In this document: positions 6,356 to 16,809 of the stretch, in pieces
Position numbering within the stretch: position 1 is the stretch's first letter
Layout of the letters: each line of letters begins with the position of its first letter
Source of the DNA: Pseudomonadota bacterium
GTDB taxonomy: Bacteria; Pseudomonadota; Alphaproteobacteria; Sphingomonadales; Sphingomonadaceae
DNA length: 64,000 bases
Assembly (NCBI GenBank): GCA_029550345.1
Contig: JAKPHK010000015.1
Coordinates: 1 to 64,000 of the forward strand
Reading direction: 5' to 3'
Made by a program: the position numbers and the translations under genes
The notes under the pieces: generated by a model
What the model was told of the DNA's origin: nothing
Database searches by the model: none
Seen by the model: the letters and a program-made list of their open reading frames with translations, nothing else

Positions 6356-8041
6356 TCAGTGGTGAGCCTTGTCGTCGATGACGGGCAGGGTCTCGAACTG
6401 GTGGAACGGCGGCGGGCTCGACAGGGTCCACTCGAGCGTGGTCGCGCCTTCGCCCCAGTAGTTGTCGTCCGCCTTCTTGCCCACGGTGTAGGCGTAGATG
6501 ATGTTGATGAACCACACCACCAGCGAGGCCACCATGACCATGTAACCGATGGTCGCGATCTCGTTCCAGTAGGCGTAGGCCGGGGTGTAGTCCGGATAGC
6601 GCCGCGGCATGCCCTGGAGGCCCAGGAAGTGCATCGGGAAGAAGATCAGGTTCACGCCGACGAAGAACACCCAGAAGTGGACGTGGGCGAGGAACTCGGA
6701 GTGCATCCGGCCGCTCATCTTCGGGAACCAGTAATAGAAGCCCGCGAACAGGCCCGTCACCGCGCCCAGCGACAGAACGTAGTGGAAGTGACCGACCACG
6801 TAGTAGGTGTCGTGCAGCACGTCATCGACGCCGCCGTTGGCCAGGACCACGCCGGTCACGCCGCCCACGGTGAACAGGAAGATGAAGCCCAGCGCCCAGA
6901 CCATCGGCGACTTGAACTCGATCGAGCCGCCCCACATGGTCGCGATCCACGAGAAGATCTTGATGCCGGTGGGCACCGCGATGACCATGGTCGCGGCGGT
7001 GAAGTACATCTTCGTGTCGACCGACAGTCCGGTCGTGTACATGTGGTGCGCCCAGACGATGAAGCCGACGACACCGATGGCGACCATCGCGTAGGCCATG
7101 CCAAGGTAGCCGAACACCGGCTTCTTCGAGAAGGTCGACACGATCTGGCTGATGATGCCGAAGGCCGGCAGGATCATGATGTAGACTTCGGGGTGGCCGA
7201 AGAACCAGAACAGGTGCTGATAGAGGACCGGATCGCCGCCGCCGGCGGGATCGAAGAAGGTGGTGCCGAAGTTGCGGTCGGTCAGCAGCATGGTGATCGC
7301 GGCGGCAAGCACCGGCAGCGCCAGCAGCAGCAGGAAGGCAGTGACCAGCACCGACCACACGAACAGCGGCATCTTGTGCAGGGTCATGCCCGGCGCGCGC
7401 ATGTTGAGGATGGTGGTGATGAAGTTGATCGCGCCCATGATCGACGAGGCGCCGGCGAGGTGGAGCGAGAAGATCGCGAAGTCCACCGCCGGATTGCCGA
7501 TCTTGTCCTGGGTCGACAGCGGGGCATAGGCGGTCCAGCCGATGCCGGCGCCGTTGCCCGCGCCGCCCGGCACGAAGGCCGAGATGAGCAGCGAGATGAA
7601 GCCCGCCACGGTCAACCAGAACGAGATGTTGTTCATCCGCGGGAAAGCCATGTCGGGTGCGCCGATCATGATCGGCACGAACCAGTTTCCGAACCCGCCG
7701 ATGATCGCCGGCATGACCAGGAAGAACACCATGATCATGCCGTGGGCGGTGATCAGCACGTTCCACAGGTGCAGCTGGGCTTCGAAGCTGGGGTCCTTGG
7801 TCCCCAGGAACGAGGCGACCGAGCCGAGATACTGGATCCCGGGATGGGCCAGTTCCATCCGCATCACGCCCGAAATCGCACCGCCGACAAGACCGGCGAA
7901 GATCGCGAAGATCAGATAGAGCGTGCCGATGTCCTTGTGGTTGGTGGACATGAACCAGCGGGCAAAGAAGGCCGGCTTGTGATCATGATCGTGGTGACCA
8001 TGTTCTTCGTGAGCCTGGAAGTGTTCGGCGGTGGTAGCCAT
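6356..8041 (-). CDS. ctaD: Cytochrome c oxidase subunit I
   Basis: [18 protein letters not shown] ... [24 protein letters not shown] ... [19 protein letters not shown]. Confidence 0.98.
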
Positions 8042-14189: not shown

Positions 14190-14656
14190 TCACCGCCAGC
14201 GCGATCGATTTCCGCGCTGCGCTCCCTCAGGGCGGCGCACTTCTGGGGCTGGATCTGGGAACCCAGACCATCGGCACGGCCTTTTGCGATGCCGGCTGGC
14301 GGTTCGCCTCGCCCGGCAAGACGCTGAAGCGCGGCAAGTTCGGCGCCGACCGCGAGGCGCTGGCCGCCCTGATTGCAGAGCGCAGCATTCGCGGCATCGT
14401 CCTGGGGCTGCCGCTCAACATGGACGGCAGCGAAGGGCCGCGCAGCCAATCGAGCCGAGCCTATGCCCGCAACCTTGCCGCCGCGCTGGGCCTGCCGGTG
14501 CTGCTGTGGGACGAGCGCTGGTCCACCACCAGCGCCGAGCGCGATCTGATCGGCCAGGACATGAGCCGGGCCAAGCGCGCAACCCGGATCGATTCGGCCG
14601 CCGCCGCGGTGATCCTGCAGGCCGCGACCGACGCGCTGGCGGGCGGGTTCGGCTAG
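14171..14656 (+). CDS. ruvX: Putative pre-16S rRNA nuclease / Holliday junction resolvase YqgF family
   Basis: GGALLGLDLGTQTIGTAFCDAGW ... GLPLNMDGSEGPRSQSSRAYARNL ... LLWDERWSTTSAERDLI; GTG start overlapping the upstream gene. Confidence 0.93.
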   Translation: MAQDALITASAIDFRAALPQGGALLGLDLGTQTIGTAFCDAGWRFASPGKTLKRGKFGADREALAALIAERSIRGIVLGLPLNMDGSEGPRSQSSRAYARNLAAALGLPVLLWDERWSTTSAERDLIGQDMSRAKRATRIDSAAAAVILQAATDALAGGFG

Positions 14657-15552
14657 ACCAGCTCGGCCCGCCGCGCTTTCGCTTCCATCGCCACCAGTCT
14701 GCTGCCTGAGCCTTCGGCGGTTCGCCACAGGGCTTCCCTTAGGGCCGGATCATTCTCACGCGCGGCAAGTGCGTCCCACGCCGTCAGCCGCAGCCGGTCG
14801 CTCGGGTGATTGCGGGCGAAGCGGTGCGCCAGATCCAGCGCCTCTTCCCCGCCCAGCCCGACCGCGACCCGCAGGAACGCCTCGCTCGGCCCGGGCGAGA
14901 TGATCGCGGCGATCTCCCTGCGTTCAAGGTCGAACCGGTACTGGTCGAGCCAACCCTGTGCGCCGCTGGTGTGCATGATGTTGAGCGAGACCGAGAGCGC
15001 GTCTGCCGCACCCTGCGCATGAACATCGCGGTGCGCGCGGTAGAGCATGATCTTTCCCTCCTCCAGCCGCGCCCGTTCGATGAATTTCAGCGAAGGGACC
15101 GGTTCGCCGCGATAGCCGGTCACGGCCTCGTAATCGTATTCGTAATAGTCGCTCCAGTATCCCGGCCCGAAATAGCCGAGCGTCAGGAAGCTGAAGTTGT
15201 GATCGTGCGGCAGGCCAAGGACAAAGGCATCGCCGCCGCTGGCCCGGATCATGTGATCGTCCAGCGCGGGCCAGATGTTCGCGCGGATAAAGAACTGCCC
15301 GTTGGGCGGGGCCAGCATCATCACCTGCGGGCCATAGGCGCTGTCCAGTCCCAGGTCGCGGTTGCGCCGGGCCAGCTCCTCGATCAGCAGGTCGCCCAGG
15401 AAGGTCTTGTTGTTGCCCAGCCGTCGCAACCACCTGGCGGCGTGGTGCAGGCTTTCGTCATCGCCGGGATCGAACCCGGTGGCAGTCAGCGCCTCGACAC
15501 ATTCGTCCAGCGAGGCGCGGCGGTTGTCAGCGATTTCGATCACATGGGGCAT
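14653..15552 (-). CDS. Unknown protein, cupin-like histidine motifs plus C-terminal HEAT-like helices
   Basis: MPHVIEIADNRRASLDECVEALTATGFDPGDDES...LGLPHDHNFSFLTLGYFGPGYWSDYYEYD...EEGKIMLYRAHRDVHAQ...; overlaps the upstream ORF by 13 nt. Confidence 0.8.
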   Translation of the reverse strand: MPHVIEIADNRRASLDECVEALTATGFDPGDDESLHHAARWLRRLGNNKTFLGDLLIEELARRNRDLGLDSAYGPQVMMLAPPNGQFFIRANIWPALDDHMIRASGGDAFVLGLPHDHNFSFLTLGYFGPGYWSDYYEYDYEAVTGYRGEPVPSLKFIERARLEEGKIMLYRAHRDVHAQGAADALSVSLNIMHTSGAQGWLDQYRFDLERREIAAIISPGPSEAFLRVAVGLGGEEALDLAHRFARNHPSDRLRLTAWDALAARENDPALREALWRTAEGSGSRLVAMEAKARRAELV

Positions 15553-16517
15553 GGCTGCACTCCGGCCAGTTGGGGATAGGTTTCAAGCAGTTGTGCCCGC
15601 AGCGCGCCGGCCGGGGCAGCCAGCGGATCGTCCGCGCGCGCCGCGATCCGGCACAGCAGGGCAAAACCATGCGCCGTATCGAGCGCCAGACATTCGCGCA
15701 GCGCCTGCCAGCGCAGCCCCTCGCCCGCCTCCTCCTCGGCCATGGCCGCCAGCAGCGGGGCGGCATCGCTGCGGCCCATCCGTCCAAGCAGCGCCGCGGC
15801 CAGTTCAAGACGGCTTTCACGCGGGGTTCCGGCGGACTGGTGTACCAGCGCTCCGTCGCTCAGCCGGTATTCCCGCGTCGCAATTGCGGACGCGGTCCGG
15901 CGCTGCAACTTCAGAGTGACCAGACTGCCAGGGACGGAGAGCAGGAACTGGGTCTGATCGAGCCCGATCCGGTGATGAACCGGACCCGGCGCAAGCGTGG
16001 TATCCTGCCCGCGCAGTTGTGCCGCGGCGGACCGCTGCCCGGTGATCGTGACCCGCCTGGCCAGCCCGGTTCCGGCCAGCACTCGTTCATAGGTTTCAAC
16101 CGCGGCAAAACTGACCGATACCGGGGCCGGTCTGCGCGCCAAACCGCTGCCTTCGACCGACTGCAACAGCAGCGTTGCGGTATCGTGGCGGGCCAGAACC
16201 AGCGAGGCGATGGCATCATCGGCGGAATAGCGCAGCGGGGCCTGCCCCAGCGGATCACCCGCCAGTTGCGCCAGCAATCGTTCGACCAGATCCATCACCA
16301 GCCGCCGCGCGCTATCCCCTTCCGGCGCGAACAGCGCGGCCAGCATCGGCAGGTCCTCCAGCACCGCGCCTTCGGCGAAGGCGGCCATTTCCGTATCGAG
16401 ACCCGCCGCCAGCCCGGCGCGGCGCCAGGTTTCGTAAACCGCCCCGATCGCCCTCTGCGCTTGGCGCTGCGGAGTATCGTCCCCCCGCAGCGCCCGCAGT
16501 TCCGGTCGAATGATCAT
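15540..16517 (-). CDS. Unknown protein with helical (HEAT-like) C-terminus, operon with the small peptide
   Basis: MIIRPELRALRGDDTPQRQAQRAIGAVYETW...; AGGAGG ribosome-binding site before the ATG; coupled to the next gene. Confidence 0.8.
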   Translation of the reverse strand: MIIRPELRALRGDDTPQRQAQRAIGAVYETWRRAGLAAGLDTEMAAFAEGAVLEDLPMLAALFAPEGDSARRLVMDLVERLLAQLAGDPLGQAPLRYSADDAIASLVLARHDTATLLLQSVEGSGLARRPAPVSVSFAAVETYERVLAGTGLARRVTITGQRSAAAQLRGQDTTLAPGPVHHRIGLDQTQFLLSVPGSLVTLKLQRRTASAIATREYRLSDGALVHQSAGTPRESRLELAAALLGRMGRSDAAPLLAAMAEEEAGEGLRWQALRECLALDTAHGFALLCRIAARADDPLAAPAGALRAQLLETYPQLAGVQPCPM

Positions 16518-16532
16518 CCGGAACCTCCTGCG

Positions 16533-16685
16533 TCAGGAAACGAGAACGTCATAGATATAGACCATGATGACGATCGCCGTGTCATCCGACCCCATGGCGC
16601 GAGCCGGATAGGCCATGCTGCCGAACATTCCGGTAATCGTTTCAAGATCAGGCAGCGCCGAGATATCAATCTTGGGCAAATTCAT
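16533..16685 (-). CDS. 50-aa peptide ORF, first gene of a three-gene operon, possible precursor peptide
   Basis: MNLPKIDISALPDLETITGMFGSMAYPARAMGSDDTAIVIMVYIYDVLVS; AAGGGGA Shine-Dalgarno-like sequence upstream; 15-nt gap to the next gene. Confidence 0.72.
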   Translation of the reverse strand: MNLPKIDISALPDLETITGMFGSMAYPARAMGSDDTAIVIMVYIYDVLVS

Positions 16686-16809
16686 GGCAATTCCCCTTGC
16701 TGAGCCGCAGGGCACTGTGCCCCCCGGACCACCTGATCCCGCCGCAATCGGGGCAAATGGGGAAATTAAAAGATTGTAATCGTGGCCAGCGCGCCGCACA
16801 GAACCGCCG

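Follow-up and report, generated by a model that had tools for sequence, protein, structure and literature searches.

Gene arrangement and the peptide A

What is made, or done, by three closely packed genes that open with a peptide of only 50 residues? The question is raised by a locus of the window, the stretch of 64,000 nucleotides of contig JAKPHK010000015.1 (Sphingomonadaceae) that was analysed here. The genes are named A, B and C in their order on the minus strand, and they probably constitute an undescribed route to a modified peptide. The features of the locus are as follows.

16692-16698, minus strand: AAGGGGA, Shine-Dalgarno-like site of gene A (from the sequence; almost every homologous peptide start has a purine-rich site ahead of it)
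16533-16685, minus strand: gene A, 50-aa peptide ORF with an ATG start (from the sequence; MNLPKIDISALPDLETITGMFGSMAYPARAMGSDDTAIVIMVYIYDVLVS)
16524-16529, minus strand: AGGAGG, Shine-Dalgarno site of B (from the sequence)
15540-16517, minus strand: gene B, 325-aa ORF (AF2, Foldseek, histidine columns, weak HEAT_2)
15540-15552, minus strand: overlap of B and C, 13 nt (from the sequence and homologous loci)
14653-15552, minus strand: gene C, 299-aa ORF (AF2, Foldseek, alignments, hhalign)

The positions and lengths of the ORFs, their Shine-Dalgarno sites, the 15-nt spacing between A and B and the 13-nt overlap are all as given in the preliminary description. So are the unrelated genes that bound the trio: ruvX (convergent) on one side and two thioesterase-like genes (divergent) on the other. 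No transporter or protease gene adjoins the trio at this locus. The overlap of B and C is common to most homologous loci, is also present on an Alteromonas plasmid and is consistent with translational coupling.

The preliminary description had made its proposal depend on the peptide being conserved together with the two larger genes, and this is the case: A lies upstream of B in 78 of 78 sphingomonad relatives with usable upstream sequence. Two loci where A was not found (L050 and L068) are not counted, as a contig edge cuts their upstream region. Among 40 close pairs, the substitutions in A at codon positions 1, 2 and 3 number 269, 114 and 667, and the median dN/dS is about 0.18; these values indicate that A is a translated gene under purifying selection. 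A spurious ORF is ruled out by the conservation and the codon-position statistics. The frame stays open further upstream, as a 114-aa ORF with a TTG start, but the 50-aa start is preferred on account of its conservation and its ribosome-binding site.

The N-terminal block, MNLPKIDLSxLPDLDTLTGxFGSL, is the most conserved part of A; P4, P12 and G22 are invariant and L11, L14, G19 and F21 nearly so. The linker (about residues 25-33) and the tail, which often has a PPxxGLF-like ending, are variable, yet the acidic-hydrophobic C block between them, DD[T/S]hhhhMhhhY[D/E], has D35 and Y45 in 77 of 78 sequences. The window peptide contains no cysteine, and Pfam and NCBIfam searches with the peptides gave nothing convincing. 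On this pattern, A seems to combine a leader-like N block with a core-like C part, whose conserved block varies less than the cores of typical antibiotic RiPPs (ribosomally made, modified peptides).

Predicted folds and active site of the two larger proteins

According to the preliminary description, neither large protein matches a known family. This holds by sequence: the lone match of B, and likewise of C, to Pfam and NCBIfam is a weak HEAT_2 at the C-terminus. It does not hold by structure, as the AlphaFold models that the description had called for (AF2, pLDDT 95 for B and 89 for C) have the recognisable fold of thiol-dioxygenase-like cupins. Neither protein falls into a characterised pathway, the other outcome held in advance to count against the proposal. 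Searches of PDB sequences with the B and C profiles gave no matches, CDO_I or a related Pfam model does not match C at E<=1, and CDO_I has no match in the window's own genome.

The model of C is closest to thiol (cysteine) dioxygenases (Foldseek 4tlf_D, E 3.7e-7), with other matches to mercaptosuccinate dioxygenase, CDO, ADO and PCO; C is thus predicted to be a thiol-dioxygenase-like cupin with a HEAT-like C-terminal tail. In the family alignments every sequence has H116 and H118, and 97-100% have H178. A weak hhalign alignment to CDO-like sequences (P 0.039) places the motifs H116-D-H118 and D176-V-H178 on the dioxygenase HDH and D-I-H, the two iron-binding motifs of thiol dioxygenases. The hallmark of these enzymes, a cupin fold with a three-histidine site, thus appears to be present in C, judging by the AF2 model, Foldseek and the histidine columns. 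In the same weak alignment (P 0.039) the dioxygenase segment SIHVY becomes SLNIM (S189, N191, M193), so the Ser-His-Tyr triad is replaced by Ser-Asn-Met and is lost as a catalytic triad; the serine after the third histidine is kept. We regard C as a putative non-heme iron oxygenase, for which A would be the substrate.

The model of B comprises a helical N-terminus, a cupin-like double-stranded beta helix and a HEAT-like helical C-terminus. The beta fold is the same as in C (Foldseek to the thiol dioxygenase 4tlf_C, E 6e-6). Any relatedness of B and C is undetectable by profile comparison, and the likeness is in fold only. Across the B family there are no conserved histidines. Because the cupin fold is present but the histidine triad is not conserved, B is likely to be a pseudo-enzyme, a non-catalytic peptide-binding partner, with C as the enzyme.

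The known thiol dioxygenases (cysteine dioxygenase, 3-mercaptopropionate dioxygenase and ADO/PCO; Pfam CDO_I) are therefore like C in their cupin fold but differ in several respects. C has no CDO_I match, carries Ser-Asn-Met in place of the triad, has an additional HEAT-like tail and is constantly accompanied by B and by a peptide, which in the window has no cysteine. The presence of the N-terminal cysteine dioxygenases ADO and PCO among the Foldseek matches might suggest a peptide-dependent or oxygen-sensing regulatory role, in which B-C would sense O2 or thiols and control the stability of A in the manner of the plant and animal N-terminal cysteine oxidases. The locus is also conserved like a housekeeping gene. 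This explanation is nevertheless very improbable, given that A has no N-terminal cysteine, that no regulator gene is linked and that the distant loci described below look biosynthetic.

Distribution in sphingomonads and beyond

When 85,462 species genomes were searched with C, 80 loci were obtained. Every one of them carries a Sphingomonadales label or is compatible with one, and the taxa include Novosphingobium, Erythrobacter, Qipengyuania, Aurantiacibacter and Croceibacterium. In a sample of 301 genomes, C is present in 99 and B in 92, almost always adjoining, and the profile matches within the sampled class are confined to the window's family. The co-occurrence of the trio in other genomes had been proposed as a check: A, B and C occur together in sphingomonads, and the combination peptide-B-C is also found outside the class.

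The order lysA - siroheme synthase - (two thioesterases) - A - B - C - ruvX is kept across much of the family, and the distances of C correlate with those of ruvX (r = 0.80). Because of this conserved order and correlation, the trio of the window is best described as old, vertically inherited and often lost, a stand-alone chromosomal unit at a syntenic site. A mobile antibiotic cluster is ruled out for this locus by the synteny (lysA, siroheme synthase, ruvX) and the C-ruvX correlation.

Divergent loci of the same family have a peptide ORF of 43-57 aa at or just upstream of B, for example MPLPAIDIDEVPMLGTAVGLFGSFAGESAINNPGVFEVTVTVVTIIYD (L096) and MTKIDISSVPEIRTPVGIHSSSQQREVAGAFCVGGIIAVAILIFG (L104). 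Some sphingomonad genomes (G149 and G075; L088, L089) carry second, divergent A-B-C copies at another site. C is shortened at L024, and B is incomplete or undetected at L014, L047 and L058, which suggests decay or sequencing errors.

Distant homologues were collected with a broader C profile, which reached two families outside the class but in the same phylum, and by tblastn, which located C on Alteromonas stellipolaris and Vibrio plasmids. The homologues in the two families keep the order peptide-B-C. Many distant relatives have a short peptide before B-C, for example MERKSVVLEDLLDDVAPTTNTTTELGIVITIAVVIL (L126), MDLMIEAVNALGNFDVAMFDPQVLDPVFVIPIIIILTKTL (L127) and the related MSVVELVVDVVNTLGNFDVQLFESHALDPVFVIPIIIVA (L134), and the peptides occur in tandem at L138 (three) and L149 (two). 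At L136 and L137 the leader MKELTLEDAEFVSGGG ends in ELTLEDAEFVSGGG and was judged by eye to be of the double-glycine type. The core at these two loci is proline-rich (GGGIPPFIGYQEPPIEEL), unlike the hydrophobic cores elsewhere. The C-terminal halves of the peptides differ strongly between subfamilies, some of which (L104, L138, L149) have cysteine in the core. Two PmbA/TldD (TldD-like protease) proteins follow B-C at L135.

These distant loci bear on the possibility that A is a small permanent subunit, or a strand-donating micro-protein, of a complex of B, C and A that oxidises a free metabolite, A itself never being the product. Such a role would suit the conservation of both halves of A in sphingomonads, the syntenic, vertically inherited locus without an exporter, and the activity of the fold relatives of C on free thiols. 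We consider it unlikely in view of the tandem A-like peptides, double-glycine leader, TldD-like proteases and exporters of the distant homologues, and of the strong differences between the C-terminal halves.

MacB/HlyD/ABC exporters together with a second ABC transporter are found at L138, L149 and L132. L138 and L149 are organised alike, as HlyD - ABC ATPase - MacB/FtsX permease - peptides - B - C - ABC ATPase. After the last ATPase comes an ABC-2 permease in L149 and, in L138, a protein without an assigned family. The L149 locus, a complete exporter-linked version, is part of the Alteromonas stellipolaris plasmid pASTE61-200 (CP013927.1:59122-78018) and contains two unannotated features.

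7621-7737 of the L149 locus: precursor-like peptide
7836-7961 of the L149 locus: precursor-like peptide

Three B-C pairs lie within about 15 kb at L132 (G1262:C1:341000-360900), which also holds MacB, HlyD and ABC-2 systems, a Yip1 protein and an S49 peptidase and is apparently a multi-product cluster.

Class II bacteriocin-like MacB/HlyD clusters share with L138, L149 and L132 the short leader peptides, HlyD with an ATPase and an FtsX permease, and the second ABC transporter; they differ in having no B or C, and the window locus differs from them in having no exporter. This resemblance, together with the hydrophobic C-terminal stretches, would be compatible with A being an unmodified bacteriocin or signal peptide and B and C its chaperones or immunity proteins. 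That is quite unlikely, as the conserved three-histidine site of C implies catalysis, to judge from the alignments, and the separate ABC transporter genes beside B-C at L138 and L149 could supply immunity.

L142 and L147 code for a C-like protein of 244 aa with a 228-aa neighbour, and the very divergent C is preceded by MNQNEIEEVMPPQNQSSTELADFDDMMLPPQDQRPALMFRAEA, a peptide in which an MPPQ-like motif is repeated; they are perhaps a different subclass. A clear peptide was not found for the distant B-C pairs L139-L141, L143-L145 and L150. Pfam and NCBIfam searches with the distant members tested gave nothing convincing.

Proposed function and relation to known systems

The reading that we favour, with moderate confidence, is that A-B-C is a compact RiPP-like system consisting of a precursor with leader and core, an oxygenase (C) and a catalytically dead partner (B). 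It is supported by the distant clusters with their tandem precursors, double-glycine leader, TldD-like proteases and MacB/HlyD exporters. A short precursor gene conserved beside dedicated enzymes, one hallmark of such systems, is present in the sphingomonads and also outside the class. Another, export and/or a leader protease in the cluster, is found at L132, L135, L138 and L149 and is absent at the window locus.

The N-terminal half of A would serve as a recognition leader bound by B or by the B-C pair, and the C-terminal half (acidic, then hydrophobic, with a variable tail) as the core to be modified. B and C, both HEAT-tailed, would form a complex in which B, structurally similar to C, binds A and presents it to C. 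With mononuclear non-heme iron at its three-histidine site and O2, C would oxidise residues in the C-terminal half of A. Plain thiol oxidation does not appear to be the general chemistry, because cysteine is present in some cores but not in the window peptide. In the exporter-linked clusters the product would be exported; in the sphingomonads its release would require a transporter and a protease encoded away from the trio, unless it stays inside the cell.

Several observations count against this reading. The window trio has no exporter or protease and is chromosomal and vertically inherited, unlike most antibiotic RiPPs, and the putative core of sphingomonad A is conserved at D35 and Y45, unlike hypervariable cores. 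Several distant B-C pairs come without a clear peptide. In addition, the window peptide lacks cysteine, the usual substrate of thiol dioxygenases, and C lacks the Ser-His-Tyr triad.

There are two published systems with which the trio can be compared. The crocagin proteins CgnA, CgnB, CgnC and CgnE likewise combine a short precursor with a single iron dioxygenase and with peptide-binding partners that are homologous to each other, one of which has lost its metal site; CgnB and CgnE resemble M29 aminopeptidases, and CgnC depends on 2-oxoglutarate (PMC10070186). The likeness is in outline only and the folds are unrelated; membership of the crocagin system is ruled out, B and C both being cupin-like and CgnB and CgnE M29-like (PMC10070186). 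In the biphenomycin-type RiPPs, PbsQ is a cupin-like, JmjC-related hydroxylase that tailors the peptide after an MNIO has modified it (PMC12257519). This pathway also combines a cupin-fold oxygenase with a TldD-type protease, whereas in A-B-C the cupin pair is the sole candidate enzyme. No description of the trio was found in the open-access papers searched.

The proposal of a new class of peptide modification remains the best reading and is partly supported: comparative genomics and the oxidase-like C speak for it, but the window locus has no exporter or protease. A RiPP-type system with a new enzyme pair is probable on the comparative sequence evidence. More tentatively, at somewhat less than even probability, A-B-C may be the first representative of a RiPP class not yet described, defined by the action of a three-histidine cupin oxygenase and its pseudo-cupin partner, both HEAT-tailed, on hydrophobic cores, and domesticated in sphingomonads as a stand-alone chromosomal trio that makes a conserved peptide signal or cofactor.

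If the favoured reading is true, a thiol-dioxygenase-like oxygenase that acts on ribosomal peptides and is guided by its dead twin would be a new pair in peptide biosynthesis. Pipelines based on Pfam and NCBIfam would miss the B and C families, because no such model was found to cover them. The Sphingomonadaceae, including the relatives of Novosphingobium and Erythrobacter, would gain a conserved and widespread small peptide amenable to testing.
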